The position numbers and the translations under genes are program-made. 37,645 nt of DNA from an uncultured SAR86 cluster bacterium (lineage in GTDB: Bacteria; Pseudomonadota; Gammaproteobacteria; Magnimaribacterales; D2472). The notes under the pieces are model-generated. The model did no database searches and was not told the DNA's origin. It was given only the letters and a program-made list of their open reading frames with translations. The DNA lies in the NCBI GenBank assembly GCA_902541175.1, contig CACBPP010000008.1, positions 1-37,645 of the forward strand, read 5' to 3'. Below are positions 11,401-36,009 of the stretch, in pieces (the first letter of the stretch is position 1; every line of letters starts with the position of its first letter).

Positions 11401-11457
11401 TAATTGAAATAATAAATCATTGAGATAAAATTTAGTATATTTATTAATTTTAGATAA

Positions 11458-11766: not shown

Positions 11767-11800
11767 ATTAATACAAAATATTAATTAATTTAATTAAATA

Positions 11801-16660: not shown

Positions 16661-16758
16661 AAAATCTCCCTATCAAATAAATTTATATTTAAAATATATC
16701 AACAAATATATCATTTTATACTACTAATAAGTGTCTTAAATCTATATATTAATAACAT

Positions 16759-17781
16759 ATGATCTATTCAAATATCCTTGAAACTATTGGAAATACTCCG
16801 TCTATAAAGGTTAAAAATATTTCTATAAATAACACAAATATATATGTGAAAGCTGAATTCTTTAATCCTGCTAGTTCAGTAAAAGACCGTTTAGCTATAA
16901 GCATTATTGAGAACGCAGAAATAAATGGATCTTTAGAAAAAGGTCAGACGGTTGTTGAAGCAACTAGTGGTAATACTGGTATTGGTCTAGCAATGGTTTG
17001 TGCGGCCAAGAATTATCCTCTAGTGGTAACTATGCCAGATAGCGCATCTATAGAAAGACGAAAATTAATGAGATTTCTTGGAGCAAGAGTAATTTTAACT
17101 CCTGCATCCGAGGGAGGAACAGGCGCATATGATATTGCAAAAAGATTAGTTCATAAAAATAATTGGTTTTTTGCAAGACAATTTGAAAATGAAGATAATG
17201 CCAATATTCATGAAGAAACAACAGGAATAGAAATTTATAATGACTTCAAGGATATTGGACTAGACTACTGGGTATCAGGATATGGTACTGGAGGTACTTT
17301 TACTGGAGTATCTAGAACATTAAGAAAAAAACTTCCCAATACTAAATTAATTTTAACCGAACCAGATGTAGCTCCATTAATAGGTAGTGATAAAAAACAA
17401 ATTAGAAATGACGATGGTTCAGCATCAGAATCACATCCTGCATGGAACCCTCATCCTATACAAGGTTGGACTACTGATTTCATCCCTCTTGTTTTACAAG
17501 AATCAATTGATAAAAAATATTATGATGAATTAATTCCAGTGTCTGGTGATGATGGTCTATTTTGGTCACATGAATTAGCAAAAAAAGAAGGTATTATTAC
17601 AGGAGTTTCAGGTGGATCAACATTCGCAATTGCTGTAGAAGTTGCCAAAAAAGCTAAGGAAGGTTCAAATATTTTATGCATGCTTCCTGATACAGCTGAA
17701 AGATATATGTCTAGTGTTTTATTTGACTCAATTGAACCAGAAATGAACGAGGAGGAGAAAAAGCTCCTTAATTCTGTGTAG
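16759..17781 (+). CDS. cysK: Cysteine synthase (O-acetylserine sulfhydrylase)
   Basis: PLP enzyme forming cysteine from O-acetylserine and sulfide. The PLP lysine is K42 in NPASSVKDR, the substrate loop EATSGNTGIGLA follows, and the phosphate-cradle glycines are in GTGGTFTGVS. The C-terminal DTAERYMSSVLFD is typical of CysK-type proteins, although CysM cannot be excluded. The length of 340 is slightly above the usual 310-325. Its stop is 4 bp from the stop of the convergent cysE gene, so the two consecutive steps of cysteine synthesis lie side by side but are transcribed separately. Confidence 0.9.
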   Translation: MIYSNILETIGNTPSIKVKNISINNTNIYVKAEFFNPASSVKDRLAISIIENAEINGSLEKGQTVVEATSGNTGIGLAMVCAAKNYPLVVTMPDSASIERRKLMRFLGARVILTPASEGGTGAYDIAKRLVHKNNWFFARQFENEDNANIHEETTGIEIYNDFKDIGLDYWVSGYGTGGTFTGVSRTLRKKLPNTKLILTEPDVAPLIGSDKKQIRNDDGSASESHPAWNPHPIQGWTTDFIPLVLQESIDKKYYDELIPVSGDDGLFWSHELAKKEGIITGVSGGSTFAIAVEVAKKAKEGSNILCMLPDTAERYMSSVLFDSIEPEMNEEEKKLLNSV

Positions 17782-21898: not shown

Positions 21899-22321
21899 AT
21901 GAATGAATCTAATCTTGTCCAAAAATTTATATGGTTCTCAGAAAGAGCTATATTATCAACAATCGCACTAGCCACACTATTTGCATCTGCTTCAGAAATC
22001 ATTCGAATAATTTCTGTTCAAGAGGTAAATCTAAGTGATTTATTTCTATTATTTATTTATGCAGAGGTACTTGGAATGGTAGCTTCATTTTATGCCAATA
22101 ATAGAATACCAGTTACATTGCCATTAATTATTGCTATGACTGCACTTACAAGGATGATAATACAAGAGAGTAAAGATCTTAATGCTATTAATATTATTTA
22201 TGAAGCTACTGGAATTCTAATACTGGCAATATCAGCATATATAATGACTCTTAAGGATAAAATAAGTCTCAAAAAACTTTTATTAAGAGAAAAAATAGAT
22301 GAATCTGAAATTCCGGATTAA
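21899..22321 (+). CDS. PsiE-like phosphate-starvation-inducible membrane protein
   Basis: The 140-residue product matches the PsiE family in length (136 in E. coli) and in the conserved core FIYAEVLGMVASFYANNRIP followed by LPLIIAMTALTRMII. Four hydrophobic segments are seen. In E. coli psiE responds to phosphate starvation and cAMP-CRP, but its function is not known. No Pho box is evident in the 38-bp upstream gap. It is convergent with the nitronate-monooxygenase-like gene. Confidence 0.85.
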   Translation: MNESNLVQKFIWFSERAILSTIALATLFASASEIIRIISVQEVNLSDLFLLFIYAEVLGMVASFYANNRIPVTLPLIIAMTALTRMIIQESKDLNAINIIYEATGILILAISAYIMTLKDKISLKKLLLREKIDESEIPD

Positions 22322-22330
22322 TTAAATCAA

Positions 22331-23254
22331 CTAAATTTTTAATTCACTCATTGAATTACAGATTGAATTAAATTCTTTTACAATTTCATCGATTATTTGT
22401 TTTACAGGTTTTATTTCATCTATTAATCCAGATGATTGACCAGAAAGTGCAGGAGCTGCCTCCATATCTCCTCCAAAATATAAATCTTTAATATTCATCA
22501 AAGCAGTCATATCCATTTCACCTTTCTCATCAATGTCTTTGGTTAAGTCTGTTTTAAGAGCCCTAATCACAGGTTTTGATTTTTTATTTAAAATATATGT
22601 ACCATCAATTCCGGAGTTAATAATTTTATTTTTAAAATTATTATGAACCGGACTTTCTAGACTTGAAACAAATCTAGTTCCCATTTGGATTCCCTCTGCT
22701 CCTGCTGCAAATACAGCTGCCATTCCAGCACCATCAGCAATTCCTCCAGCAGCAATAATAGGTAAATCTAAATTTTGTCTTATTGATTGAATAAGAACTA
22801 AAAGGCCAACCTCAATTGGACTTTTAAATCCACCGCCTTCTGTACCTTCAACGACCAGGCCATCAACACCAGCATTTGCTGCTTTAATTGCGCCATCAAG
22901 ACTAGGGACAGCATGATATACAGTTATTCCTGCATCTTTTAATGTACCAATATATTTTGTAGGATCTCCAGCAGAGGTTGTTACAAATCTAACACCTGAC
23001 TCAACACAAAAATTAACCATTGAATCATCTTTAAGGAATAATAAAGGTAAATTAACTCCAAATGGTTTATCAGTTAGTTCTGACATCATTTGAATTTCTT
23101 TTTTACAGTTATCAATTTCTCCAGATGATGTTTCTATTATCCCCATTCCGCCGGCCTCACATACTGCTGATGCAAGTTGACTTCTTGCAATCCAACCCAT
23201 TGGAGCTTGAATAATTGGATACTTAGATCCTGTATGAGCAGCAACTCTATTCAT
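22331..23254 (-). CDS. Nitronate monooxygenase-like FMN protein
   Basis: A TIM-barrel flavoprotein of the nitronate monooxygenase / 2-nitropropane dioxygenase / FabK superfamily (307 residues). FMN-binding features are IIQAPMGWIAR near the N-terminus, IIAAGGIADGAGM, and GIQMGTRFVSS near the phosphate. The position that carries the catalytic histidine in classical enzymes (EAGGH) reads EGGGF (residues 139-143), so ordinary nitronate oxidation may not occur. It begins 21 bp after the membrane-anchored dehalogenase-like gene, and the pair is probably one leftward operon. Confidence 0.88.
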   Translation of the reverse strand: MNRVAAHTGSKYPIIQAPMGWIARSQLASAVCEAGGMGIIETSSGEIDNCKKEIQMMSELTDKPFGVNLPLLFLKDDSMVNFCVESGVRFVTTSAGDPTKYIGTLKDAGITVYHAVPSLDGAIKAANAGVDGLVVEGTEGGGFKSPIEVGLLVLIQSIRQNLDLPIIAAGGIADGAGMAAVFAAGAEGIQMGTRFVSSLESPVHNNFKNKIINSGIDGTYILNKKSKPVIRALKTDLTKDIDEKGEMDMTALMNIKDLYFGGDMEAAPALSGQSSGLIDEIKPVKQIIDEIVKEFNSICNSMSELKI

Positions 23255-23275
23255 TAAGTAATTGTATATATAAAT

Positions 23276-24400
23276 TTATAAAATAGAATTCATATCTAAA
23301 ACTTTCTTCTCAACAGTAAATCCTTCAGGATTTCCATTAATAAAATCTATTATTAATTGGGCATATTCAGGTCCTGCCTCTTCTTGTACAAAGTGTCCAG
23401 GACCACTTATGACAATTTCTTGTGCGGTAGGTATTCTCTTTAGCAGCTCAACTATTTCAGGATTATTCCCAGTTACAGGATCATTATCTGAATTTGCTAT
23501 TAAAAAAGGTTTATTCCATTCTTCTAGCACCTCTCTATATGCCATTTCATTTTTTCTTAATTCGCTAGGAATTAGATATGGAAAAATTTGTGCTCCTGCT
23601 TTGTAAGAAGCATTTGGATAAGGGGCTTCATAAGCAAGGCTTTCTTCATAAGTTACTGATCCAAGAGTCTGCATAATTCCACCAACATCAATATTATCTG
23701 TATAAGTTGAATATCGAATCCAATTTGTAAAACCATCGCCACCAATAAATTCTTCCCAAGTAGCAGGCCCTTGAAACCATATCGTAAATTTAAATATTGG
23801 CCATAACAAGTAACTTCTCAAGTCATTCATAAAACCTCTACCAGTTGCAGGCAAGCTTGTATTCGTTGCAATAACTCTATCAAATCTATTTGGTTCCTCT
23901 GCTAATACTCGAAATCCTACTGGTCCGCCCCAATCATGAAAATGTGCAGTTATATTTTTTAAATCAAGCTCTACTATTAATTGAGTCATTTTTTCAACGT
24001 GCATTTGATGTGAATAATCATCTGTTGATATGTATTTATCTGATTTACCAAATCCAATCATATCTGGTGCAATAACTCTAAATCCTTCGTTTACAAGAGT
24101 TGGTATCATCTTCCTAAATAAATAACTCCATGTAGGTTCTCCATGAAGTAAATAAATAATCTGTCCATCTTTAGGGCCTTCATCAATATAATGAATTCTT
24201 GTATCGCCAATTGTTAAATAATTTGGTGTGAACGGATAATCTTGTAAGTCTTCAAATCGTTCATCAGGTGTTCTTAATATTCCAGGAGAAACTAAATTGA
24301 ATCTCTCATAATTAATAGATGGTTCAGAGTTTCGAATATATTGAAATAGTCCTATAAATATAATCAGAATAAAAAATAAAATTGAAAAAACTTTATTCAT
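23276..24400 (-). CDS. Membrane-anchored haloalkane dehalogenase-like hydrolase
   Basis: Alpha/beta-hydrolase with the residue set of subfamily I haloalkane dehalogenases such as DhlA. The N-terminal half reads like DhlA: TPDERFEDLQDYPFTPNYL, then LLHGEPTWSYLFRKM. Candidate residues are nucleophile D156 and halide-binding W157 in HFHDWGG, a second halide tryptophan W227 in GFTNWIRY, the acid in NSDNDPVTG and H336 in GHFVQEE. Before this comes a hydrophobic anchor or signal (about residues 4-20). I chose the start at 24400 (MNKVFSIL) because a GGAG site precedes it; an upstream ATG at 24496 would run into the divergent gene. The glutamine that usually precedes the nucleophile is histidine. Dehalogenase activity is inferred. 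Confidence 0.85.
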   Translation of the reverse strand: MNKVFSILFFILIIFIGLFQYIRNSEPSINYERFNLVSPGILRTPDERFEDLQDYPFTPNYLTIGDTRIHYIDEGPKDGQIIYLLHGEPTWSYLFRKMIPTLVNEGFRVIAPDMIGFGKSDKYISTDDYSHQMHVEKMTQLIVELDLKNITAHFHDWGGPVGFRVLAEEPNRFDRVIATNTSLPATGRGFMNDLRSYLLWPIFKFTIWFQGPATWEEFIGGDGFTNWIRYSTYTDNIDVGGIMQTLGSVTYEESLAYEAPYPNASYKAGAQIFPYLIPSELRKNEMAYREVLEEWNKPFLIANSDNDPVTGNNPEIVELLKRIPTAQEIVISGPGHFVQEEAGPEYAQLIIDFINGNPEGFTVEKKVLDMNSIL

Positions 24401-24467
24401 CAGTATTCTCCAGTAATATACTTTAAGATAATATATTGACGTAATATATGTCAAAGGTGTATTAATT
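24401..24467. promoter_or_regulatory. Divergent control region with a 19-bp near-palindrome
   Basis: The whole 67-bp space between two divergent operons. TTGAC at 24436-24440 and GTCAA at 24450-24454 are the arms of a 19-bp near-palindrome with 7 of 9 base pairs matched. The right arm, read leftward, gives a perfect -35 hexamer TTGACA, with TATTAT 15 bp further on, a candidate promoter for the dehalogenase-like gene. For the rightward operon, GATAAT (24427-24432) could be a -10 and AAAGGTG (24453-24459) the ribosome-binding site. A repressor on the palindrome would block both directions. Alternatively the palindrome may simply be back-to-back promoter elements. Confidence 0.45.
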
Positions 24468-24869
24468 ATGAAAGTTGAAAACAAAGTTATGCCCAACGAA
24501 GATCAAATAAATGGTTTTTTGGAAAATTCTGAAATTGGACCTATATCAATGGTGAATTTGCTTAAATATAAAGATAAAGCCGAATATGATGATGGTCGTG
24601 ATACTAATCTAACTGGAGAAGAGGCATATAGTCTTTACGCTGCTGAAGTAATAAATTTCGTTGAAAAGTATGGTGGTGAATTTGTTTTTGCAGGTAAGGT
24701 TAATAGATTAATGTTAGGTGAGGTTGAGGATTTATGGGATGCTGTTGCAATTGCTAAATATCCTAGCAGAAAAGCAATGTTTGATATGACAATGGATCCG
24801 GGATATCAAAAGATTCATGTTCATAGAGATGCTGGATTAGAGGGGCAGCTAAATATAGAAACTATCTAA
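24468..24869 (+). CDS. DUF1330-like protein
   Basis: A 133-residue protein related to DUF1330 (alpha+beta ferredoxin-like). After a short N-terminal helix it has the strand ISMVNLLKYKDKAEY, then EKYGGEFVFAGKVNRLMLGE and AIAKYPSRKAMFDMTMDPGYQ. It is the first gene of the eight-gene rightward operon, with an AAGGTG ribosome-binding site eight bases before the start. The next gene follows after 9 bp. The role is unknown; members are often found beside hydrolases and oxygenases, as here. Confidence 0.82.
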   Translation: MKVENKVMPNEDQINGFLENSEIGPISMVNLLKYKDKAEYDDGRDTNLTGEEAYSLYAAEVINFVEKYGGEFVFAGKVNRLMLGEVEDLWDAVAIAKYPSRKAMFDMTMDPGYQKIHVHRDAGLEGQLNIETI

Positions 24870-24878
24870 TAAACTATT

Positions 24879-25931
24879 ATGAAAAAATTATTAATATTTT
24901 TAAGTTTAATTATTGCGATTTATCTTATCGGCCAATTAGCTTTAAATTCTCATACTGTACAAGACAGAATCTTAAATATTGGTTTAAAAAATATATTATC
25001 TAATTCAGAGCCTTTTTTAGATAAGGAAGATTCATTAAAAGTTGTTATTTGTGGTTCGAGGTCACCACTTCCATCTCCTGGGCGAGCAGAATCATGTGTT
25101 CTTGTAGAAGCTGGTGATGACATATATATTTTTGATATGGGTAATGGAAGTGTTAATAATCTTCAAGAATTTCAGGTCCCATGGACAAATGTTAAAGCAG
25201 TCTTAATTACTCATATGCACTCAGATCATATGGCAGATTTACCTGATGCCCATCTTCAGTCTTGGATTCAAGGAAGAAATTCACCATTAATGGTATACGG
25301 ACCAGTAGGAATAAATCTTGTTACTAAAGGATTTGAGTTAGCTTACTCAGCAGATTATCAGTATAGAAATGAACATCATGGTGAGGAAATTTTACCAATG
25401 AGTGTATCTGGATTTAATGCAGTCGAAATAATTGATAATGAATTAATTCCAAATGATACGCCAGGATTAGAAATATTGCCTTTTGTAGTTGATCATCATC
25501 CTGTTAATTCATCATTCGGTTTTAAAGTATCCTATAAAGGAAGAACAGTTGTTATAAGTGGAGACACTATTCATGATGGGAGTGTTCAAAAGTATTCGCA
25601 AGATATAGATTTATTAGTTCATTCTGCTATATCAATAGATATTGTTGAGAGGATGAGAAAAGTCGCCCCAACACCTCAATTTAACAAAATTCTATTCGAT
25701 ATACAGGATTATCACACCAAAATAGAGGAAGCAGGTGAAATTGCTAGAGATGCTAATGTAAAACATTTGCTCATATACCATTCCATACCAACACCTCGAA
25801 ATACTATAATGGAAAGAGTATTTTTTAGACCTTTAGAAGGTATATATGAAGACTATACACTTTCAGACGATGGAACTAGGGTTGTTATGCCTGTAGGTAA
25901 TAATGAAATTGTTATTGATAAAATAAATTAA
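24879..25931 (+). CDS. Membrane-anchored metallo-beta-lactamase-fold hydrolase
   Basis: The 350-residue protein starts with a hydrophobic anchor or signal (residues 4-20), followed by an MBL domain. The dinuclear metal motif is THMHSDH (H112, H114, D116, H117). Further ligands are likely in VVDHHPVN, in SGDTIHDG (the bridging aspartate) and in LIYHSIP. The layout resembles the RNase Z / arylsulfatase-like branch. It lies second in the rightward operon and overlaps the next gene by one base (TAATG). With its predicted anchor it probably works in the periplasm on ester-like substrates; the substrate is not predictable. Confidence 0.88.
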   Translation: MKKLLIFLSLIIAIYLIGQLALNSHTVQDRILNIGLKNILSNSEPFLDKEDSLKVVICGSRSPLPSPGRAESCVLVEAGDDIYIFDMGNGSVNNLQEFQVPWTNVKAVLITHMHSDHMADLPDAHLQSWIQGRNSPLMVYGPVGINLVTKGFELAYSADYQYRNEHHGEEILPMSVSGFNAVEIIDNELIPNDTPGLEILPFVVDHHPVNSSFGFKVSYKGRTVVISGDTIHDGSVQKYSQDIDLLVHSAISIDIVERMRKVAPTPQFNKILFDIQDYHTKIEEAGEIARDANVKHLLIYHSIPTPRNTIMERVFFRPLEGIYEDYTLSDDGTRVVMPVGNNEIVIDKIN

Positions 25932-26389
25932 TGACACTTTTTCCTAATAAATTAAATGATGATTACAAAGGTTCTAAAATCGCGATATATGGTCTTTATC
26001 CTGTTTTTGCTTTATATATATTTAGATCACTTGTACATTTCCTTTCAGAAAATGCAGGTCTTGTTGGAATTGCAACAATAAAAGAACTTCCAATTATAGA
26101 TACTATAGATCCTAATAACTTAGTTTATTTATTTGCATCGCTTTGGGGAGCAACACAAGTATCATTAACATTAGTTTTATTAATTTTATTTATTAAATAT
26201 AAAAGCTTAGTACCGTTAATATATATGATATGTCTCTTAGATCATTGTTTTAGATTAATTTCAGGCTTACTTCATCCTTTGACCGTCGATTACTATATAA
26301 ACACACCTCCTGGGGTAATTGGCAATATACCAATATTGATATACTTTATGATAATGTTTTATATATCATTAATAAAAGGAAGCTCATAA
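25931..26389 (+). CDS. Multi-pass membrane protein of unknown function
   Basis: A 152-residue protein with about four hydrophobic helices: YGLYPVFALYIFRSLVHFL, LVYLFASLWGATQVSL with LVLLILFIKY, LVPLIYMICLLDHCFRLI, and IPILIYFMIMFYISL. I recognise no family. It is translationally coupled to the MBL gene (TAATG) and lies one base before the DsbA-like gene, so it belongs to the same transcript. It might serve the exported enzymes or bind a hydrophobic substrate, but nothing in the sequence says so directly. Confidence 0.8.
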   Translation: MTLFPNKLNDDYKGSKIAIYGLYPVFALYIFRSLVHFLSENAGLVGIATIKELPIIDTIDPNNLVYLFASLWGATQVSLTLVLLILFIKYKSLVPLIYMICLLDHCFRLISGLLHPLTVDYYINTPPGVIGNIPILIYFMIMFYISLIKGSS

Positions 26390-26390
26390 T

Positions 26391-27035
26391 ATGATTGATT
26401 TTTATTTTTCATACAGAAGCCCTTATTCATACTTAATTCTTCCAAGAATGCTTAAACTTAAGAATGAATATAAATTGGATATAAATTTTAAAATCGTATA
26501 TCCCATAGCTATAAGAATGCCTGAATGGTTTGATAACAAAAATATATTCTTCTTTATTCCATTTGTAAGAGACTTTAAGAAGAAAGCAAAAAAATTAAAT
26601 ATGCCATTAAATATGCCGATAAAACCTGATCCAATTAGGCAAAATACATTAACTGGAAAAATAGCTGATCATCAACCTTATATATTTGATGTTTGTCATA
26701 TGGGTCAGTTAATGTGTAATAGAGGCAAAGGAATCGAGTTCGCATATGAATTATCTACCTTAATATGGAGCGTTAAGAATTGGAATTCAGATGATAAATT
26801 AAAAGATCTACTAGCTGATTTTGGAGAAGATTTAGATGAAGTAAGAGAATCAATAAAATCAAATGAAAAGAGTTTAATTGAAGAAATTGAAATGAATCAA
26901 TTAGATCAAAAAGAAGCTGGACATCATGGAGTTCCTTTAAATGTGTATAAAGGAAAATATTATTTTGGACAGGACGACCCATTTGAAGAATTGATCAAAG
27001 AATTGATAAACGATGGAGTAATTAAAAATTTTTAA
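26391..27035 (+). CDS. DsbA-fold HCCA-isomerase-like protein
   Basis: The 214 residues form a thioredoxin-like fold with a helical insertion, as in 2-hydroxychromene-2-carboxylate isomerase, a kappa-class GST relative in naphthalene degradation. The opening DFYFSYRSPYSYLIL has serine (S10) at the active-site position in place of a CxxC, as in those isomerases. The C-terminal HHGVPLNVYKGKYYFGQD is the conserved cis-proline region and closing strand. It overlaps the downstream dehalogenase-like gene by one base. A glutathione-dependent isomerase would fit the GST-rich operon; the real substrate is unknown. Confidence 0.85.
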   Translation: MIDFYFSYRSPYSYLILPRMLKLKNEYKLDINFKIVYPIAIRMPEWFDNKNIFFFIPFVRDFKKKAKKLNMPLNMPIKPDPIRQNTLTGKIADHQPYIFDVCHMGQLMCNRGKGIEFAYELSTLIWSVKNWNSDDKLKDLLADFGEDLDEVRESIKSNEKSLIEEIEMNQLDQKEAGHHGVPLNVYKGKYYFGQDDPFEELIKELINDGVIKNF

Positions 27036-28096
27036 TGAAGGTATTGAGAACTCCTGATAAGTATTTCAAAAATATTAAGGATTACCCATTTGATCCAATA
27101 TACACAAATATTTTTGCAGATGATGGAACAGAAATAAGAATTCATCATATTGATGAAGGTCCATCTGACGGTCCAATTTTGTTAGCGATGCACGGCCAAC
27201 CAGTTTGGAGTTATTTATACTCTAAAATGATACCTATCCTTAATGATTCTGGAATAAGAGTAATTGCACCCGATTTGGTTGGATATGGCAAGTCAGATAA
27301 ACCAGCCTCAAGAAATGATTATAGTTATCAGAATCAAGTTGATTGGATGAATCAATGGTTAGTAAAAAATAATTTAGATGATTTAATTTTTTTTGGTCAA
27401 GATTGGGGTGGATTAATCGGTCTAAGAATGATTGTTGATAACCCAGATAGATTTACAAAAATATCTATGGGTAATACAGGATTACCCTATATGCCAAATA
27501 CTCCAAAGGCTGTGATTGATGAAGTACATGAATTTAGGAAATCAAATATAAAACTTACTCCACTTAATATGTCAAAAGAGGTAAGGAAGATGGATTCTGG
27601 TAAAACACATCCCGCATTAAAATTTATGTATTGGCAAAAATTTTGTTGGGATACGAAAAATCTTCCTGTTGGTTTATTAAATTCAGCAATGATGGAAAAA
27701 AAATCAAATAATCAAATTAGAAATCATTATTTTTTTCATAAATTAGGATTATCTAAAATATCACCCTATATGAGCGATTTAATGAGAGCATATGAGGCCC
27801 CTTTCCCATCTCCTAAATATAAAATGGGGTGCAGGGCTATGCCAAGTCATGTACCAATAATTCCAGATAAATCTCTAGATGCCCAAAAAAAAGCAAGAGA
27901 ATTTTATAATAAAACTAATAAACCATTTTTATCTGTTTTTGCTGGCAATGATCCTGTAACTAATGATATGGAAAAGGATGTATTAAGAATGGTACCAAAT
28001 GCTATAAAAGCTAAAAATATTGGTGGCGGTCATTTTTTTCAATGGACTAAACCAAAAGAATTATCTAAAGTATTAATTGATTTTATAAAGGATTAA
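27035..28096 (+). CDS. Haloalkane dehalogenase-like alpha/beta-hydrolase (second paralogue)
   Basis: The 353-residue enzyme shares the DhlA-type start (RTPDKYFKNIKDYPFDP) and the segment RAYEAPFPSPKYKMG with the gene at 23276. Nucleophile and halide tryptophan are D123-W124 in GQDWGG, the acid is probably D306 in AGNDPVTN and the histidine H333 in GGHFFQW. The oxyanion loop reads HGQPVWSYLY, with Gln where DhlA has Glu. The cap region (about residues 150-250) is longer than in DhlA and contains W200 and W205 as candidates for the second halide contact. No signal peptide is seen, so it is cytoplasmic, unlike its paralogue. Epoxide or ester hydrolysis is the main alternative. Confidence 0.87.
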   Translation: MKVLRTPDKYFKNIKDYPFDPIYTNIFADDGTEIRIHHIDEGPSDGPILLAMHGQPVWSYLYSKMIPILNDSGIRVIAPDLVGYGKSDKPASRNDYSYQNQVDWMNQWLVKNNLDDLIFFGQDWGGLIGLRMIVDNPDRFTKISMGNTGLPYMPNTPKAVIDEVHEFRKSNIKLTPLNMSKEVRKMDSGKTHPALKFMYWQKFCWDTKNLPVGLLNSAMMEKKSNNQIRNHYFFHKLGLSKISPYMSDLMRAYEAPFPSPKYKMGCRAMPSHVPIIPDKSLDAQKKAREFYNKTNKPFLSVFAGNDPVTNDMEKDVLRMVPNAIKAKNIGGGHFFQWTKPKELSKVLIDFIKD

Positions 28097-28098
28097 TA

Positions 28099-28785
28099 AT
28101 GATTGAATTATATACAGCACCAACTCCGAACGGTCACAAAGTCTCGTGCACACTTGAGGCATTGGATATGGATTATGAAGCAATACTTGTCAATCTTTCT
28201 GAGGGTGAGCAAAAAAAACCTGATTTTTTAAAAATTAGTCCCAATGGAAGAATTCCTGCAATTATTGATACATCAAATAATCTATCTGTTTTTGAATCTG
28301 GAGCAATAATGATTTACTTGGCTGATAAAGCAAATAAATTGATTTCAACAAATCCTGAAAAAAGAGCAAAAGTTTTAGAATGGCTCATGTTTCAAATGGG
28401 TGGCGTTGGTCCAATGATGGGACAAGCAAATGTATTTTTTAGGTATTTCCCTGAAAAAATACAACCTGCTATTGACAGATATCAAAATGAATCAAGAAGA
28501 TTGTTTGAAGTACTTGATACACATTTAAAAGACAATGAATGGCTTGCACAAGAGTATTCAATTGCTGATATTGCAAATTGGTGTTGGGTAAGAACACATA
28601 AATGGTCAGGTGTTTCAACTGAAGGATTAGATCACTTGGAAAGATGGAAAGATGCTATGTATGAACAACCCGGGATGCTTGAAGGAATAAAAGTACCAAT
28701 TGAAATTAAAATAGATAAAAATCTTGATGACAAGGAAAAGACAAAAGAATTTATTAAAAATGCACAAAAAATGGTAAAAAAATAA
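28099..28785 (+). CDS. Glutathione S-transferase, Nu-class-like
   Basis: A 228-residue GST with the motif APTPNGHKVSCTLEAL, which resembles the YghU/YfcG Nu-class active site that uses a backbone Thr-x-Asn arrangement with two glutathiones. NGRIPAIID supplies the cis-proline and FESGAIMIYLAD the gamma-glutamyl-binding segment. The C-terminal helical domain includes YSIADIANWCWV, the usual capping box. It starts 2 bp after the dehalogenase-like gene. Disulfide-bond reductase or organohydroperoxide reductase activity is known for Nu-class members; here it may handle thiol adducts. It is the first of three adjacent GST-fold genes. Confidence 0.92.
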   Translation: MIELYTAPTPNGHKVSCTLEALDMDYEAILVNLSEGEQKKPDFLKISPNGRIPAIIDTSNNLSVFESGAIMIYLADKANKLISTNPEKRAKVLEWLMFQMGGVGPMMGQANVFFRYFPEKIQPAIDRYQNESRRLFEVLDTHLKDNEWLAQEYSIADIANWCWVRTHKWSGVSTEGLDHLERWKDAMYEQPGMLEGIKVPIEIKIDKNLDDKEKTKEFIKNAQKMVKK

Positions 28786-28794
28786 GGAGACACT

Positions 28795-29430
28795 ATGATA
28801 AAACTGTATTTAACACCAGGAACAAGAGCAGGTCGAGTTGCATGGCTTCTCGAAGAGCTTGAAATTGAATATGACTTAGAGGTGCTGCCCTTTACGAAAG
28901 AAGGCCTAAAATCTCCTGAACACAGATCCAGGCATGCTTTAGGTAGAGTTCCAGTCATAGAAGATGGAGATATTTCAATATTTGAATCTGGTGCAATTAT
29001 TCAATACATACTTGATAAATATGGTGACGGTAAACTCAAACCTGATATAAATTCTGATGAATATCCATATTATCTGCAATGGTTTCATTTCTGTGAGGGA
29101 ATGGTAATGCCTCCGATGAATCAAATCGTAGTTCAAACAGTATTGCTACCACCTGACAGAAGAGATGAAACTGTTTTAAATCAAGCCAAAAATTTACTTT
29201 CAAAATCATTATCTCCAGTAAATGATTTTTTAGATGGAAAAGATTACTTGATTGGTGAATTTTCAGCAGCTGATTGTATGTTAGGGCATTCTTGTTATAT
29301 GGCAAACAGATTGGGCTGTGTAAATGATGAAATGACTAATGTTAAAAAATATGTTTCTAATATTGAAACTAGAGAAGCATTTCAAAAAGCAATCAAACTT
29401 GGTGATGAGGCTGGAAATCCAATAGAATAA
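28795..29430 (+). CDS. Glutathione S-transferase
   Basis: A 211-residue GST preceded by a strong AAGGAG ribosome-binding site. The N-terminal domain reads LTPGTRAGRVAWLLEELEI, LGRVPVIEDGD and FESGAIIQYILDKYG, the standard thioredoxin-fold set. The C-terminal domain contains FSAADCMLGHSCYMANRLG, the capping box with Asp. The likely catalytic serine or threonine is in the TPGTR loop. It resembles beta/theta-like bacterial GSTs. It differs clearly from its two neighbours, so the three are not a recent tandem duplication. Confidence 0.92.
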   Translation: MIKLYLTPGTRAGRVAWLLEELEIEYDLEVLPFTKEGLKSPEHRSRHALGRVPVIEDGDISIFESGAIIQYILDKYGDGKLKPDINSDEYPYYLQWFHFCEGMVMPPMNQIVVQTVLLPPDRRDETVLNQAKNLLSKSLSPVNDFLDGKDYLIGEFSAADCMLGHSCYMANRLGCVNDEMTNVKKYVSNIETREAFQKAIKLGDEAGNPIE

Positions 29431-29436
29431 GATCTA

Positions 29437-30546
29437 ATGAAAGATCCTATAAAGGTATTCGGAAATGTTGGATCTCCGTATACACAAAAAATGCTATCTC
29501 TTCTGAGGTATAGAAATATTCCATACTCTGTTTCATGGGGAGATGTAGTTCAGAATTTATCATTTCTTAATATTGAACCCCCAAAGCCTGTTTTATTACC
29601 CACAATGGTATTTAAAGGTGATAAAGGTACTGATATTTGCAGGACTGATACAACACCAATAATAAGATATCTTGAAGAATTGTATAAAGAAAAATCTGTA
29701 ATACCTCCCTCACCTATTTTAAGTTTTCTCAATTACTTGCTAGAAGATTTTGCAGATGAGTGGACAACCAAATATATGTTTCATTACAGGTGGTATTTTA
29801 ATGAGGATGCAGATAATGCAAAAAAAATGTTAGTACTTCAACATAAAATAGATATAGATGACGAATCTATGAATCAATTTGGTGATGTTATTGCTGACAG
29901 GCAAATTAATAGGTTATGGGTTGTTGGTTCAAATGATGATACAGCAAAACTCATTGATCAAAGTTATAAAAGATACTTATCATTGATGGAAAATCATCTT
30001 AAATTTTTACCATTCATGTTTGGACAGCGACCTTCATCATCAGATTTTGGTTTATATGGTCAACTTACCCAACTAGTTGGATTTGACCCAACACCCAGAA
30101 ATATCGCATATAAACAATCACCAAGAACAGTTTCATGGGTAAATATAATGTCAGATTTGTCAGGTTTACATGATAGTGGAGGAATTGGTGAGTTTTTTGG
30201 AGTGAAATCTAACGAAGTAAAAAATAAAAATAAATTAAACTACTTTAAAGATCATAATTATGGATGGCTTGATATAGATAGCATTCCTATTTCACTAATT
30301 GAAATATTTAATGAGGTTGGAAAAGTTTATATTCCATGTCTAATTGCTAACGCAAATGCTTATGAAAACGGTGATGAGGTTTGGGAAACTTCGATAGATG
30401 GAGAAATTTGGAAACAAAAAACATTTCCATATCAAGTAAAGTGTCTAAATTGGATTAAAGATGAATTCAATAAATTATCATCCGATGATAAAAAAGCAAC
30501 ACTAAACTTAATCAATGGTAGTGGTTGTGAAAAAATTTTAAACTAA
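29437..30546 (+). CDS. Extended GST-fold protein
   Basis: At 369 residues this is much longer than a standard GST. The first 90 residues are a GST thioredoxin domain: VFGNVGSPYTQKMLSLLRYR with Ser-Pro-Tyr at the active-site position, LLPTMVFKG with the cis-proline, and DTTPIIRYLEE. A helical domain follows, with the capping-like segment FGQRPSSSDFGLYGQLTQL near residue 200. About 130 further residues (from roughly 240) are outside the usual fold and unrecognised. It is the last gene of the rightward operon, and its last 9 bases overlap the 3' end of the convergent ceramidase-like gene. Confidence 0.82.
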   Translation: MKDPIKVFGNVGSPYTQKMLSLLRYRNIPYSVSWGDVVQNLSFLNIEPPKPVLLPTMVFKGDKGTDICRTDTTPIIRYLEELYKEKSVIPPSPILSFLNYLLEDFADEWTTKYMFHYRWYFNEDADNAKKMLVLQHKIDIDDESMNQFGDVIADRQINRLWVVGSNDDTAKLIDQSYKRYLSLMENHLKFLPFMFGQRPSSSDFGLYGQLTQLVGFDPTPRNIAYKQSPRTVSWVNIMSDLSGLHDSGGIGEFFGVKSNEVKNKNKLNYFKDHNYGWLDIDSIPISLIEIFNEVGKVYIPCLIANANAYENGDEVWETSIDGEIWKQKTFPYQVKCLNWIKDEFNKLSSDDKKATLNLINGSGCEKILN

Positions 30547-31485
30547 TCTTTCTGATCTATAATGATAAAAAAATAATATTGTTGAGAGTGCTGTTAATAA
30601 ATGCCATATTCCATGAGCTTGAATAAATGCATCAGGATTACATGATTCACTATCAGGCACGCCCGTCAACCAAATAGCAAAAGCACTAAGGTACGCAATC
30701 ATACCTGCAAAAAACCATCTATAAGTTCTTTTACCATCTGGTTTTTTATAAGCTAGTACTCCAGGTAACCAAAATAAAATAACCCACCAATATTCATTTA
30801 TATTTATAAAAACTTCCATGGGGAAGATTCCAAATATCATTAAAACTAAAAAACCAACAAATCCTGATAAAAATCGTATCATTGGTGTCCAAAATCTATA
30901 TAGAAATTCACTTATTACCCATAATCCAATAGATACACCAAATAAATCTAAACCAATTCCCATTTCATAACCAAATAGACCTCTCATAACTGCATAAAAG
31001 ATAACTATGGATATGTATATTTTTAAAAAAGTATCCACTGACCAATTAGACATTTTATATATGTTATAGAGCCATGGAATAACTATATACATCACCATAC
31101 TAAGATTATCAGCCCATCCACCCCATTCTGTATTAGTACCATGCATCATCATTGACCCAGGACCCAAATAAACTACAGCCACTCCGTAGGTAACAGTAAT
31201 TTTATTAATACCTGAAAATTCATTAAATGATTTTTCATTAGTTAATTTATATAGAATGTATAAACCTACGAAAATAAAACCTAAATTACTAAGTGTGTTG
31301 ATAGGTTCTCTAAAAGGTCCATCACTTATTCTTTCACACCATCTAGATGCCTCACCTATGAAACTTAATGAATCTTGAGATTGTATTAATTGAAAGTAAC
31401 TTAAAAGATAGAATATTATTAAAAATAATAAACTTATTATTAAAGTTATGATGAAAGAGTTTTGAAGGTTAAAAATTTTAGACAC
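30538..31485 (-). CDS. Ceramidase-superfamily membrane hydrolase
   Basis: The 315-residue polytopic protein (about eight hydrophobic segments) matches the alkaline ceramidase family (CREST superfamily). The zinc-site set of human ACER3 (Ser, three His and Asp) is reproduced with the same local spacing: S111 and H115 in SMMMHG, D126 in WADNLSM, H291 and H295 in HGIWHLLTAL. The N-terminal WCERISD and INTLSNLGF match the family's WCE and NT-SN motifs. Members hydrolyse the amide bond of ceramide-like lipids in the membrane. Sphingolipids are rare in bacteria, so the substrate could be an amino-lipid of the cell itself or a host or algal sphingolipid. Downstream on this strand it overlaps the last GST gene. 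Confidence 0.88.
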   Translation of the reverse strand: MSKIFNLQNSFIITLIISLLFLIIFYLLSYFQLIQSQDSLSFIGEASRWCERISDGPFREPINTLSNLGFIFVGLYILYKLTNEKSFNEFSGINKITVTYGVAVVYLGPGSMMMHGTNTEWGGWADNLSMVMYIVIPWLYNIYKMSNWSVDTFLKIYISIVIFYAVMRGLFGYEMGIGLDLFGVSIGLWVISEFLYRFWTPMIRFLSGFVGFLVLMIFGIFPMEVFININEYWWVILFWLPGVLAYKKPDGKRTYRWFFAGMIAYLSAFAIWLTGVPDSESCNPDAFIQAHGIWHLLTALSTILFFYHYRSERLV

Positions 31486-31501
31486 AACTACTTTTAAAAG
31501 G

Positions 31502-31543
31502 ATTGAGTGTTAAAAATTATAAATTAAACTTTTAACACTCAAT
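31502..31543 (-). terminator. Long AT-rich hairpin after the giant exported protein gene
   Basis: A perfect 14-bp inverted repeat, ATTGAGTGTTAAAA and TTTTAACACTCAAT, with a 14-base AT loop. It lies 11 bp past the stop of the 1484-residue gene. It has few G:C pairs and no long T tail on the minus strand, so it is a probable but not classical terminator; the next leftward gene starts 16 bp further on. Confidence 0.45.
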
Positions 31544-31554
31544 TGAATTGTAAA

Positions 31555-34500
31555 TTATGGCGTTGGATCAAATACAATTTCACCATTAATTACTGATGGG
31601 TCACCGCCATTAATTAATGATGTTGGTATATTTCCGATAGTCTTACACTCTTCAATACGATCTAATAAATATTGCCAATTTTCAGGATTTTGTGCAATAT
31701 ATTCTTCCCAGGTTGTTGGTCCAGTGTAAGTCTGGCCATTAGCTGCAGCGGAAGCAATATCATCCTCAATCCATCCTCTAATTCTGTCTTTCTCCCATTC
31801 GATAGGGCCTCTGCAATCATCAAAGCTTCTATCAAGTGTCCATACAGAAGTATCATCGATATATTGCTCGGAATAACAAAGCTCCCAATCTGTTACTTCC
31901 GATTCATATGTATTGCCATCACCATCTGTAAAAGTTTCAGTAGTGGTTAAAGAACACTGCCACCATTGTTCCTCACGAACACTTACCTCAAATCTAAGAT
32001 CTTTATTGGTTAAGAGATCAGATTTTGTTTTTGAACTTAACAATGATGCAAGTGATCCAATCGCCTCATCTTTTTTACCAAGCCACTCTTCTCCACGGAG
32101 TTTTTTAACTTTATATTTTTTATCTGATGTGTTTTCAGTTAATAGAGTTCCATCTGGGATAGTGAATCTTGGTACCCATCTATATGTATCTTTCCATTGT
32201 GTTACATATTCACCATAATTCACTCCCGTTTCAATATCTATAACACTTCCGGGTATACCTCCTAAATGATCACCATGATAATCTAGGATAAACTTTTTAC
32301 CGGCATCATCTCCGAAAGTTGAAGTATCATTTGGTGCAGTGAAATAAAGTCTTTTTGGTGGATTGAATACCACATTTGCTCCAGTTGAATCAAAAATTTC
32401 GTAATTTGGATATGTCTGAAATTCAATACTATATCTTACTAAAATATCGTTACTCTCCCACCTTCGAGAAGCACAATATCTAGTTTCAAGTGCTTTACCA
32501 TTAGCAACTGTATACTGAGGATTAACATTTGCATATACTTTATCGCCATTTCCATCAATGGAATATGTACATTCCATTTTTGGAAGTGTAGCAGCGTCAA
32601 CTAAGTCCCAAGATCCAACACCCCATGATGTTTCATTTCTCCACCCTTCAAGAGCTGTATAGTATGAGCCGCCAGCAATTCTTATTTTTTCCTCAGGTCT
32701 TGCAACTCCCCAATCAACATTTAAAGACATTACATTTCCATCCATATCTTTTACTAAACCGTTTTCAACTGTATATTTATACATTTCAGAAGCAACAACA
32801 CTATCAACCCACTCACCTTTACGATAATCTCTTTCTTCAGTGTACTCATTTTCAGTTCCTTCGTTGTATACGGTTTTGACTGTCATATCTTCTTTAATAT
32901 AGGGTCCTGTTGATGCATTTGGTGAGGGTGATGCAGATGAAATAGAACCCGTATAAGTTGCATCACCTGCTGGATCAGCTTGATTTTTGACATCTGTATA
33001 GTGAGCATTTAACAATGTACTTGTTACACACCTATCAATGCAATATAGCTCCGCTGGAAGTTCACTTGCAGCAACAATAGAGTCTTCAATGGTGGAGACA
33101 CCATTCTCTTTTGTAGAAGAAGTAGGATTTTCAAATGCTTTTCTTCCAATCGTATAACTTGAATTTGTATCTGGAGACCACACATTCATTTCTCTATATT
33201 CAGTTCTTTCCCATTCTGTACCCGCATCATATGTTTTTTTCATGTGAGTAAGCCAGTCTGTCAATGTAAATGTAATAGGAGCTGGTAAGGTAGTCTTTGA
33301 ATAAGTTGGTGAAAATTTTAAACCCTCAGTTACGGTAAAAGTTTCATTATCAGCGCTATATGTACCTGAATAATCGTCATAAACAACTCTATTAGTGTCG
33401 TTATCAAAAATAAATACAGTTGCCGATGATCTACCTAGAACAGTTCCTGATGAGGGGTTGCTTAAATCAATAATTATAGTTTCATCAGTTAATCCTTCTG
33501 CAACAGTATCCGCTATTTGAGTAAACGAAATTGTTGCCGCAGTTTGACCTGCTGGAATAGTTACAGTGCCTGATGATAATCCTTCATAATCTGAATCCAA
33601 CGTGGCAGTACTTGATGATGAAACTGAATAATCAAATGTCACGTCTGATCCTTGAACTTTTGATAAACTAACTGTAAGAGTTTCTGCGGATGGTGAAGCT
33701 CCAGCATCAGATGGTTCAGTGGTTTTTAAATCATCAACAAAAATAGCCGGCAGTGGATCTGAAGTTGTTTCAAATGTTCCATAAATATTATTAAATGGAT
33801 TGCCTTGGTGGTCATAAACATCCTCATATCTAGAAACTAGATAAGTAAATGTATCTGAATAATTTAAAAATGATTTTAGTCCTCTGCTGATGTCACCTCC
33901 ATCGTTATCAAATTGAGATAAAGCACCAAACGCACTTAGCAAATTACTTAGTTTAATTTCCATAGCTGCTGGTCTTTCAATACCTGTTTTTTGAACAATA
34001 AAGTCATAAACACGCCCACTATTATTCCAATTACTGGAATCAAAATATAAGCGTGTGCCAGTTTCTCCATCTTTAAACATTGCACTATAGGAACCATTAT
34101 CAGCTCTTGTCTTTGTGCTTAATGTCAATGTAGTTCCATCTGATTCTTGCATTAGATGCCCTCCAACACTAAGGCATAATTGATCAGATTTAATGTTAAT
34201 TTGATTTGCGTCATATACAGTTCTTCTTGTGTAGTCTATTGATGATCCAGTACATAAAATAATTGCAACATATGTTTCTCTTTCTCCATTTGGGTAATTT
34301 GAATAATCAGGAAATTCTGAAAACTCCATTGTTAAACCCATAGGTTTACCAGGATCACTTGGGTCATTTTCAAGAATTTTAGTTAAATTATCTTTATCAA
34401 TTTTTGCTCCAACCAAATTCGCAATATAGGCATCAGCACCGTCGTGATAACCATATAGCCCATAAGTTAAAGGATCACTCGCAGAGCCATTGTTATAATC

Positions 34501-36009
34501 TGTAAACGTAGCTTTATTAGTTTTAAATTGTATTTTTCCCTCCCATGGATCAACTGCAGCAAATCCAAGTTTTTGATATTCTTCAGACCACCATGAATCA
34601 TTAGTCCAAAAATTTAATGACAAACCATCAAGCTCATTAAGTGCAACAAATTTCTTCTCACTTTTTCTAACTTGTAATTTCCTAGGTGTAACTTTATAGA
34701 CTTCAGTTGAATCTGAATCATTATCTTTAGTCCATTGAGTATTTTCATTAACTAAGTTTTGATACTCATCTTGCACATGAACCCCCCAATATGATGCATA
34801 TCCATGAACTTTCCTATCTACTTCGTTGACTGTAACAGTAGCTTTTATTGGAAATGATTGATTTTCATCAGACATGGCTGATCCATCTTCATTAAAGACT
34901 CCATAATCAAAAACGTTAGTTATAGCATCATCTTTATCAATGGAAAAACATTTCTCATTTACATCCCAGCCTTCATTACCCAATCTTTGTAGTGGCTCAC
35001 CAGTTAATGTATAAGGGGTAAGAGTTGGGCCATCAGTCTCTTCATCATAAATACTCCAATCAACTTTATAAAGTTCTGACATCTTTGTGCAATATGTTTT
35101 GTCATTATTTGAAATGCCGAATGCAAATATACCTAATATTGAAGTATTGGAATCTCTATATTCTTGTGGTTGACACTCCCACCAGTCCTCTGCCCCATCA
35201 CAATTTGGATCTCTTAGGGATTCATCCTGAAAACCAGTTTGTTTTGAGTATACACCTGCAATATCTCCATTCTCGGAATATTGCGCAACCATATTCTGTT
35301 GCTCTGAACCTTGTAATTCACTTTTGAACTTAATGAGACCATCATCTGCAAGCAATAGTCCTCTTCCTAAATCAGCACCATCTGAACACCAGCTGTGTTT
35401 ATAATCTCTAGAGTTTTCAGGTGGACACTGATACCACTCAGGCAAATCTTCTTGTTTATTTCCATATGTTGATGCTTGAAATCTTAATGTAAACTTTCCA
35501 AACTTTGAATTTTCATCAGCAGGTTTTGTTTGTTCGTTAAGCAAATAAACAATATTTTTGGGTTCTGGATTTGATTGATCATCCCATGGTTTGTCATTTA
35601 TAACCCAAGCTTTTGTCGTTTGAGTATCTGCTGAAATAAATCCAGTATTAACAAATACTGTTTCAAGTTCCTTTTGAAGATTAGATGACTCTTGCGAACC
35701 AGATGAACCTGTATTTGATCCGGCATTTTGTGAACTTGTTGGGGCCGTAGTTCCTTGAGAGGAGTCATTTGACCCCCCAGTTTCAGTACATTCATCAGCA
35801 AATATTGTAGCTTTATATGAACCATCACCGGCTAATTCTTTTGTACCCAATTTACTTAATTTACAAACAATTAATTGAGCTGTAGCTATAACGTCATTGA
35901 CGCCTTGTCCACTGACATAATTTTCAAATTCTGCATTATCATAATCAGTTGCATTTACTGTCAATGATAGTGTAAGTATTAGTGCTATTTTTTTATTTAT
36001 ATTTTTCAT
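31555..36009 (-). CDS. Giant exported protein with Calx-beta domain
   Basis: A 1484-residue protein with a signal peptide (KKIALILTLSLTVNA). A Ser/Thr/Gln/Asn-rich linker lies at about residues 75-112. A Calx-beta domain spans about residues 770-872: TLDSDYEGLSSGTVTIPAG is its middle strand and FIFDND its closing motif, commonly a calcium-binding cell-surface module. The parts on either side are rich in aromatic and acidic residues, have paired cysteines (for example in YQCPPENS and WWECQPQEY), and match nothing I recognise. No membrane anchor or sorting signal is seen at the C-terminus (INGEIVFDPTP). It starts 2 bp after the upstream surface-protein gene, so the two are co-translated and probably act together outside the cell. 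Confidence 0.85.
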   Translation of the reverse strand: MKNINKKIALILTLSLTVNATDYDNAEFENYVSGQGVNDVIATAQLIVCKLSKLGTKELAGDGSYKATIFADECTETGGSNDSSQGTTAPTSSQNAGSNTGSSGSQESSNLQKELETVFVNTGFISADTQTTKAWVINDKPWDDQSNPEPKNIVYLLNEQTKPADENSKFGKFTLRFQASTYGNKQEDLPEWYQCPPENSRDYKHSWCSDGADLGRGLLLADDGLIKFKSELQGSEQQNMVAQYSENGDIAGVYSKQTGFQDESLRDPNCDGAEDWWECQPQEYRDSNTSILGIFAFGISNNDKTYCTKMSELYKVDWSIYDEETDGPTLTPYTLTGEPLQRLGNEGWDVNEKCFSIDKDDAITNVFDYGVFNEDGSAMSDENQSFPIKATVTVNEVDRKVHGYASYWGVHVQDEYQNLVNENTQWTKDNDSDSTEVYKVTPRKLQVRKSEKKFVALNELDGLSLNFWTNDSWWSEEYQKLGFAAVDPWEGKIQFKTNKATFTDYNNGSASDPLTYGLYGYHDGADAYIANLVGAKIDKDNLTKILENDPSDPGKPMGLTMEFSEFPDYSNYPNGERETYVAIILCTGSSIDYTRRTVYDANQINIKSDQLCLSVGGHLMQESDGTTLTLSTKTRADNGSYSAMFKDGETGTRLYFDSSNWNNSGRVYDFIVQKTGIERPAAMEIKLSNLLSAFGALSQFDNDGGDISRGLKSFLNYSDTFTYLVSRYEDVYDHQGNPFNNIYGTFETTSDPLPAIFVDDLKTTEPSDAGASPSAETLTVSLSKVQGSDVTFDYSVSSSSTATLDSDYEGLSSGTVTIPAGQTAATISFTQIADTVAEGLTDETIIIDLSNPSSGTVLGRSSATVFIFDNDTNRVVYDDYSGTYSADNETFTVTEGLKFSPTYSKTTLPAPITFTLTDWLTHMKKTYDAGTEWERTEYREMNVWSPDTNSSYTIGRKAFENPTSSTKENGVSTIEDSIVAASELPAELYCIDRCVTSTLLNAHYTDVKNQADPAGDATYTGSISSASPSPNASTGPYIKEDMTVKTVYNEGTENEYTEERDYRKGEWVDSVVASEMYKYTVENGLVKDMDGNVMSLNVDWGVARPEEKIRIAGGSYYTALEGWRNETSWGVGSWDLVDAATLPKMECTYSIDGNGDKVYANVNPQYTVANGKALETRYCASRRWESNDILVRYSIEFQTYPNYEIFDSTGANVVFNPPKRLYFTAPNDTSTFGDDAGKKFILDYHGDHLGGIPGSVIDIETGVNYGEYVTQWKDTYRWVPRFTIPDGTLLTENTSDKKYKVKKLRGEEWLGKKDEAIGSLASLLSSKTKSDLLTNKDLRFEVSVREEQWWQCSLTTTETFTDGDGNTYESEVTDWELCYSEQYIDDTSVWTLDRSFDDCRGPIEWEKDRIRGWIEDDIASAAANGQTYTGPTTWEEYIAQNPENWQYLLDRIEECKTIGNIPTSLINGGDPSVINGEIVFDPTP

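Follow-up and report, generated by a model that had tools for sequence, protein, structure and literature searches.

Haloalkane dehalogenases (HLDs) of subfamily I (HLD-I) are represented among the solved structures by DpcA (6f9o), DccA (5esr), DmrA (4mj3) and DhlA (1b6g), all of which we take to belong to this subfamily. In lindane degradation, with LinB and LinD, a haloalkane dehalogenase is found beside glutathione enzymes. The catalytic pentad of HLD-I enzymes is composed of Asp-His-Asp and two tryptophans, according to one paper (PMC6920932). A 2024 SAR86 isolate paper is reported to place these organisms among the most abundant bacteria of the surface ocean, to infer the use of lipids, sterols and sulfolipids and to suggest that glutathione S-transferases (GSTs) make hydrophobic compounds accessible; the word "dehalogenase" is absent from its main text (PMC11582366). 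The present analysis concerns a block of ten genes at positions 22331-30546 of contig C8 from an uncultured SAR86 bacterium, whose genome possesses 1.16 Mb in 13 contigs. The window is the whole analyzed stretch of this contig (1-37645; 37,645 nucleotides). The block is very probably one working unit, much of whose gene set recurs in other SAR86 families, and judged from its sequences dehalogenation by this module is plausible. No description of the gene set was found in the accessible text of the open-licence literature searched, which is not proof of its absence from print.

The block encodes a flavoprotein of the nitronate monooxygenase (NMO)/FabK superfamily, an anchored HLD homologue (HLDa), a DUF1330 protein, a metallo-beta-lactamase-fold hydrolase (MBL), a membrane protein (TM5), a thioredoxin-fold protein resembling DsbA and 2-hydroxychromene-2-carboxylate (HCCA) isomerase (DSBA), a second HLD homologue (HLDb) and three GST-fold proteins (GSTa, GSTb and GSTc). 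An earlier note, made from the sequence, had given the bounds of a divergent block of ten open reading frames (ORFs), a same-strand spacing from 1-bp overlap to 21 bp and a divergent gap of 67 bp. All of these were borne out, with two ORFs on the minus and eight on the plus strand and the gap at 24401-24467. Its protein families were confirmed by Pfam and NCBIfam for all members except TM5, which has no family match. Nine functions had been listed, and the tenth gene, left unnamed there, was found to encode the DUF1330 protein. All ten genes are under purifying selection, with a median dN/dS of 0.06-0.16 against relatives.

Conservation of gene content across the SAR86 order

Matches to HLDb (weaker HLDs included) were detected at E <= 1e-20 in 51 of 60 relatives and in all 23 relatives with at least 90% completeness. 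GSTc was found in 46 of the 60. Both genes lie on the same strand and at most 2 kb apart in 7/8 genomes of family f2, 7/8 of f3 and 0/8 of f4. The neighbourhood of HLDb was then analyzed at 16 loci from beyond the genus (families f2, f3 and f4 and genus g3). When these loci were chosen, the position of GSTc was visible for 15 of them and L187 was fetched for its GSTc; the other genes were unknown at that point except in L187. Within 10 kb of HLDb, TM5 is present at 13 loci, GSTc and DUF1330 at 11 each, MBL and the NMO orthologue at 10 each, TetR at five, a sulfatase at four, and DUF2855 and an HLDa type at three each. Each of the four families sampled (f1, f2, f3 and f4) has HLDb, TM5, MBL and DUF1330 together, and GSTc and the NMO orthologue join this set in f1, f2 and f3 only.

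The arrangement is different at each representative locus. In f2, L200 has MBL(-) and TetR(-) divergent from GSTc-HLDb-DUF1330-TM5-DUF2855-sulfatase-NMO. In f3, L209 has TetR(-) with HLDa-GSTc-NMO-HLDb-TM5, and L187 has MBL(-) with HLDb-DUF1330-GSTc-TM5. In f4, L211 has an acyl-CoA dehydrogenase and HLDb-DUF1330-TM5-MBL. The order differs and the content is shared, which points to a functional module. Conserved gene order had been proposed in the earlier note as a check on its reading, and its loss as a refutation: order is kept in the genus and is not kept outside it, where content is kept instead, and content conserved despite lost order argues for linkage, not against it. The proposal of a functional unit thus stands on content retained under scrambled order across the SAR86 order, along with the retained HLD-I residues and the HLD-I fold to which HLDb models. 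TM5 and DUF1330, to which no role had been given, are also core members. Strict gene-order conservation was dropped as a test, given the reshuffled content elsewhere and flanks kept equally well in the genus. Co-location P values (6/13 genomes) were small, but they were biased, as the genomes had been picked after the clusters were visible; tallies over the 80 DSBA loci and the 16 HLDb loci took their place.

Several observations weigh against the catabolic module proposed below. Family f4 lacks GSTc and the NMO orthologue near HLDb, and at L204, from the f2 genome G051, HLDb stands alone. HLDa is optional, DSBA is a local addition, and only 5 of the 16 loci outside the genus have TetR near HLDb. 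In a contig scan with a DSBA alignment, in which the best 80 of 92 confirmed candidates were tallied, the 14 loci with DSBA identity below 46% (group D) include none with three core families and one with two. One related cluster, L115, is situated in a genome (G426) without any match to the HLD-I model NF002043, so not all related clusters require dehalogenation. Loci within a family are related, which makes the counts interdependent, and some nearness of genes is cheap, because SAR86 genomes are small and GST-rich.

Haloalkane dehalogenase homologues of the block

Membership of HLD-I was assessed by the curated NF002043 cut-off of 265 bits. It is exceeded by both HLDa (309.0 bits) and HLDb (315.6 bits), and these are the only two genes of the window genome that pass it. 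Alignment to DpcA and DccA matched the pentad positions of both proteins. In HLDb the pentad is D123, W124, W200, D306 and H333, present in 23/23 aligned rows of the genus group and in 16/16 HLDb proteins outside the genus. In HLDa it is D156, W157, W227, D307 and H336, present in 8/8 rows of close orthologues. The predicted model of HLDb (pLDDT 90.5) matched DmrA, DccA and DpcA best among solved enzymes. All 50 listed fold matches are HLD entries or HaloTag-type derivatives, with a TM-score (target) of 0.82-0.89 in the first eight. HLDb is accordingly predicted to have the HLD-I fold, an alpha/beta-hydrolase core with a helical cap.

The HLD homologues could instead be pentad-bearing hydrolases of epoxides, esters or lactones and no dehalogenases, in which case the module would degrade a non-halogenated lipid or terpenoid. 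This reading, which we consider unlikely, draws on the HGQP motif of HLDb, whose Gln55 is invariant (23/23 genus rows and 16/16 outside the genus), the corresponding motif being HGEP in HLDa and in the HLDs of L123 and L136, and on a cap enlarged by about 45 residues. Remote HLDa types carry Glu at the acid position (three f3 loci, L036 and L045), and the cluster of L115 persists in a genome that has no HLD-I match. An HLD-like site combined with another activity is found in Renilla luciferase. On the other side, neither HLDb nor the close HLDa orthologues vary at any of the five HLD-I residues, and the closest solved relatives by both sequence and fold are HLDs.

The N-termini of HLDa and MBL possess a hydrophobic stretch after a short basic start, suggesting a periplasmic position of both. 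Among the 25 loci studied in the genus and its sister genus, nine have an HLDa-type ORF, seven at >=88% identity and two at 46-49%. The earlier note had envisaged hydrolysis at the membrane followed by a second dehalogenation inside; because HLDa is optional, this fixed scheme is not general. In two members of the genus (L054; G028:C12) a stop or frameshift interrupts HLDb, through decay or assembly error.

Organization of the block in the genus and sister genus

The 25 loci comprise 24 from the genus and one from the sister genus. The order DSBA-HLDb-GSTa-GSTb-GSTc is the same in 23, with HLDb split into two ORFs in one of them, and the other two are cut by contig ends. NMO(-) with the divergent DUF1330-MBL-TM5, in some cases with insertions, is found in 22; two are cut and L056 is the exception. 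At L056 housekeeping-type genes (galU-, pyrD-, rhomboid- and SPFH-like, named by eye) lie between DUF1330 and DSBA. The insertion truncates MBL and the start of DSBA and removes TM5, and it reflects either rearrangement or misassembly. The interval between NMO and DUF1330 is variable, holding an HLDa-type ORF in nine loci, TetR in five and an unrelated ORF in one. Some loci of the genus group carry co-directional insertions of sulfatase, DJ-1 and acyl-CoA synthetase genes. Four loci with DSBA at 78-82% identity (L079, L084, L086 and L087) have the order DSBA-HLDb-GSTa-GSTb-DUF1330-DUF2855-GSTc, and HLDb is broken up in L084. The flanking genes (cysE, DUF1295, PsiE and ceramidase-like) are syntenic in the genus too. 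Genus-level order alone is therefore weak evidence, because unrelated flanks are equally syntenic.

Two features of the flanks were also observed. A pair of class IV aminotransferase and Sulfotransfer_5 genes lies between the DUF1295/PsiE genes and NMO at 10 genus loci (L035, L036, L038, L042, L043, L044, L046, L049, L051 and L056). The 1484-aa protein encoded at window positions 31555-36009 shows about 50% identity to copies in L037, L047, L086 and L142, and is far more variable than the products of neighbouring genes.

The DSBA gene is single copy in the window genome. It was searched in 60 genomes, namely the window's own, 33 of the same genus (many incomplete), two others of the family, eight of f4 and 16 of f2 and f3. 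Matches were found in 34: the window's own, 24/33 of the same genus, 1/2 of the other family members and 8/8 of f4. The 16 genomes of f2 and f3 gave no match in this search, and one marginal match was seen in G037 in another. The earlier note had included HCCA-type isomerization in its pathway, and this absence from f2 and f3 speaks against it as a core step.

An aromatic, naphthalene-like pathway would be conceivable if the SAR86 nahD annotation means this DSBA gene, since a putative nahD is described as widespread in SAR86 in the isolate paper (PMC11582366). The best PDB match of DSBA profile A1 is the HCCA isomerase 2imd, at a remote 28.6 bits (E 9.5e-6). A single-sequence phmmer search with DSBA gave no PDB relative, no ring dioxygenase or aldolase is present among the block's families, and the gene is missing in f2 and f3 where much of the module is present. 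Naphthalene-type families are likewise absent from the block's families, the rest of the genome not having been searched for them. An aromatic pathway is thus very improbable.

Related loci beyond SAR86

In the contig scan with DSBA, the best 80 of the 92 candidates fell into groups of decreasing identity. All 26 loci at >=76% identity have at least three core families, as do five of six at 60-75% and five of 34 at 46-59% (group C). In group C, HLD is present at one locus, GSTa at 10, GSTc at five, DUF1330 at four, MBL at four and NMO at eight. In group D, with 14 loci, HLD is present at one, MBL at one, GSTa at two and DUF1330 at two, and GSTb, GSTc and NMO at none. Among the group C loci with at least three core families, L118, L121, L122 and L123 are titled Pelagibacteraceae and L115 Gammaproteobacteria. 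The 16S genes of the four Pelagibacteraceae-labelled genomes are about 45 bases shorter than, and 79-80% identical to, those of SAR86, which is consistent with a class other than that of SAR86. NCBI places AG-422-B15, named in related titles, in Alphaproteobacteria. Titles of metagenome-assembled genomes (MAGs) are unreliable: L127 is titled Rickettsiales, yet its sulfatase shares 94% identity with the one in the SAR86 genome of L126.

L136, in a Hyphomonadaceae MAG, shows formylglycine-generating enzyme (FGE), a TetR-like gene and HLD, divergent from MBL, sulfatase, ORFs without Pfam match and DSBA. The HLD scores 473 bits and the TetR-like protein 20.4 bits, which is under the Pfam cut-off. 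A phage-type integrase (16334-17716) is situated about 6 kb beyond the DSBA gene of L136, which hints at possible mobility of the cluster in this form. Of the 369 genomes of the class, 16 gave GSTc matches, four of them SAR86, and most of the other 12 are weak; the GSTc neighbourhoods read outside SAR86 are mostly unrelated. L175 comes from a gammaproteobacterium that belongs to a different order; two GmrSD-type restriction genes adjoin its GSTc and long-chain acyl-CoA synthetase.

Acyl-CoA and sulfatase genes beside the module and the possible substrate

Genes of acyl-CoA metabolism recur beside the module or its parts. A long-chain acyl-CoA synthetase (NF006134, cut-off 625 bits) is present inside the sister-genus block (687.8 bits), and another adjoins GSTc at L175, outside the SAR86 order (743.4 bits). 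An acyl-CoA dehydrogenase directly precedes HLDb in 4/4 f4 loci, and acyl-CoA dehydrogenase with thiolase is present in 3/5 f2 loci, these two genes being identified by Pfam from one member per protein cluster. An enoyl-CoA hydratase is beside DSBA in L133. Sulfatases of the sulfA type with the CxPxR signature occur at 10/34 group C and 3/14 group D loci, and the signature is present in 37 of 38 sulfatase rows, L079 lacking it. These recurrent acyl-CoA genes and sulfatases suggest a lipophilic substrate, sulfated in some cases, that delivers its carbon to acyl-CoA oxidation. That the substrate is halogenated, at least in SAR86, is suggested by the HLDs and by no other gene of the block. The substrate is most likely a fat-like compound from plankton and possibly halogen-bearing.

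A SAR86 catabolic module with membrane trimming of a lipophilic substrate, dehalogenation and thiol processing inside, and acyl-CoA oxidation has, in our judgement, about an even chance of being correct. The scheme we infer, with its regulation, topology, substrate, order of steps and halide release, would run as follows. Anchored hydrolases facing the periplasm (MBL, HLDa in this genome and an anchored sulfatase in relatives) would trim the substrate at the inner membrane, perhaps with the help of TM5. Inside, HLDb would cleave the carbon-halogen bond, with Asp123 as nucleophile, Trp124 and Trp200 binding the halide and His333 with Asp306 activating water. Reactive intermediates may then be converted with glutathione by the GSTs and the DsbA/HCCA-like protein. 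The FabK-like flavoprotein and DUF1330 may act on the resulting acyl chain or thioester, and the product would enter acyl-CoA oxidation. A TetR-type repressor, encoded beside the module in some relatives, would be the probable controller.

The same genes could instead form a general protection block, in which HLDs, GSTs and the DsbA-like protein remove electrophiles such as halomethanes, epoxides and oxidised lipids in sunlit seawater without supporting growth. Three GST-fold proteins, one of them YfcG-like, the DJ-1/PfpI gene in several related clusters and the absence of a ring-cleavage family among the block's families are in keeping with such a role. It is nevertheless rather unlikely: in relatives, all or part of the module is accompanied by genes for acyl-CoA synthetase, acyl-CoA dehydrogenase, thiolase, enoyl-CoA hydratase and sulfatase, and catabolism fits better because of them.

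A more specific substrate would be the chlorosulfolipids of phytoplankton, which have polychlorinated long alkyl chains with sulfate esters; those of C12 to C27 are reported from coastal seawater during blooms (PMC13413282). Anchored sulfatase or MBL would take the sulfate and HLDa and HLDb the chlorides. Chlorides in vicinal or allylic position, and epoxides arising from halohydrins, would be handled by the GSTs and the DsbA-like protein, and the chain would be burnt by the products of the acyl-CoA synthetase and oxidation genes. HLD-I enzymes near CxPxR sulfatases in some relatives, FGE in the L136 cluster with its HLD, MBL and sulfatase, and the acyl-CoA synthetase of the sister-genus block agree with this proposal. 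No sulfatase is beside the window block, only a distant one (about 30% identity) being found 11 kb before it; a sulfatase is near HLDb in only 4/16 loci outside the genus; and FGE (PF03781) was matched in 0/12 tested SAR86 and Pelagibacteraceae-related genomes, some of them incomplete. Chlorosulfolipids are the boldest candidate and an improbable one. Cys-type (CxPxR) sulfatases are present in several of these FGE-negative genomes, which raises the question how they are matured. A second cluster of similar families is situated at 6737-11778 of the same contig, with TetR, GST, FAA hydrolase, sulfatase (CSPTR) and another DUF1330 protein; neither the sulfatase of the window nor its second DUF1330 protein is orthologous to its counterpart in the module.

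An order-wide module centred on a dehalogenase would point to a specific class of plankton molecule as food of SAR86, which is poorly known, and would bear on who recycles natural organohalogens at sea. HLDb, TM5, MBL and GSTc offer a marker set for tracing it in metagenomes and metatranscriptomes.

Partner proteins and the divergent region

The features of the block are given in Table 1. The start of HLDa was taken as the ATG at 24400; the mechanical ORF starts upstream at TTG 24496 and would overlap DUF1330. Of the families concerned, the block holds 2/7 PF02798 GSTs, 1/3 DUF1330 genes and 1/4 NMO-family matches of the window genome.

Table 1. Genes and intergenic region of the block, with window coordinates.
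Feature	Position	Strand	Evidence
NMO/FabK-superfamily flavoprotein	22331..23254	-	Pfam NMO 202.6 bits; FabK His is Phe143
HLDa, haloalkane-dehalogenase homologue (subfamily I), N-terminal hydrophobic anchor, optional	23276..24400	-	NF002043 309 bits, pentad
Divergent intergenic region, 67 bp	24401..24467	.	weak inverted repeat TTGAC-N9-GTCAA at 24436-24454
DUF1330 protein, core member	24468..24869	+	PF07045 34.4 bits (cut-off 23)
MBL, membrane-anchored metallo-beta-lactamase-fold hydrolase (RNase Z/PNGM-1/GntH-like), core	24879..25931	+	families, invariant metal ligands
TM5, 152 aa, four predicted membrane helices, no family, core	25931..26389	+	near HLDb in f2, f3 and f4 too
DSBA/HCCA-isomerase-like thioredoxin-fold protein	26391..27035	+	Pfam DSBA 41.1 bits, best stretch residues 2-34
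HLDb, cytosolic haloalkane-dehalogenase homologue (subfamily I), HGQP for HGEP, enlarged cap, core	27035..28096	+	NF002043 315.6 bits
GSTa, YfcG-like GST, TPNGHK motif	28099..28785	+	family matches; N11 in 24/24 rows
GSTb, GST-fold protein	28795..29430	+	Pfam GST_N 50.5 bits
GSTc, divergent 369-aa GST, C-terminal extension	29437..30546	+	Pfam GST_N_3 33 bits

The NMO-like protein meets the general Pfam NMO cut-off and scores 258.6 bits with the FabK NF model, under the equivalog cut-off of 453.1. Phe143 is present in 21/21 of its rows at the column where aligned FabK has His, a residue with a catalytic role in NMO/FabK. MBL retains an invariant metal-ligand set, HxHxDH with further residues (H112, H114, D116, H117, H206, D229 and H301; 21/21 rows), and is under the equivalog cut-offs of RNase Z (NF000806, 131.7 against 363 bits) and GntH (141.4 against 333 bits). 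TM5 gave no Pfam match in the three copies tested, and its model had no match among PDB folds at E<=0.001, nothing lying below E 0.9. TM5 orthologues were found at L187, L200, L201, L203, L205-L209 and L211-L214, and the family is near HLDb in all four SAR86 families sampled. GSTa matches YfcG (3gx0) at 174 bits, its closest solved match being 6tum (270 bits), and is under the YfcG equivalog cut-off (180.3 against 332 bits). The GSTc profile has no close solved relative, its best match among solved structures being only E 0.0076.

The 67-bp divergent region, which had been called a control region, is situated as described, and neither a promoter signal nor a kept repeat was detected in support of that name. 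Promoter-like matches in 22000-31600 numbered 53 against 57.7 +/- 8.8 in shuffles, showing no excess, and the 5-bp inverted repeat TTGAC-N9-GTCAA of 24401-24467 is not kept across relatives. A TetR gene, positioned between NMO and DUF1330 in 5/25 genus-group loci and near HLDb at 5/16 loci outside the genus, is a probable source of regulation.

Comparison with known systems

The block HLDs resemble HLD-I enzymes in passing the NF002043 cut-off and in sharing the pentad, and HLDb also in its predicted fold. They differ in the HGQP of HLDb in place of HGEP, its about 45 extra cap residues and recurrent partners, and the N-terminal anchor of HLDa. With the lindane-type pathway of HLD and GST the block shares a haloalkane dehalogenase beside glutathione enzymes. 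Its families include no ring-cleavage or maleylacetate-reductase type, and it adds MBL, TM5, DUF1330 and the FabK-like flavoprotein, with acyl-CoA genes in relatives. DSBA shares with NahD (2-hydroxychromene-2-carboxylate isomerase) the N-terminal thioredoxin-like motif and a remote profile match, whereas the block has no naphthalene-type families and DSBA is not a core member. The NMO-like protein belongs to the flavin-binding superfamily of FabK and nitronate monooxygenase, with 226.9 bits to solved FabK, and differs by its score under the FabK cut-off and by Phe in place of the His of FabK. GSTa, finally, is likened by its TPNGHK motif and its match to 3gx0 to YfcG, a type of GST that is presumably nu-class, and is set apart from it by a score under the equivalog cut-off.

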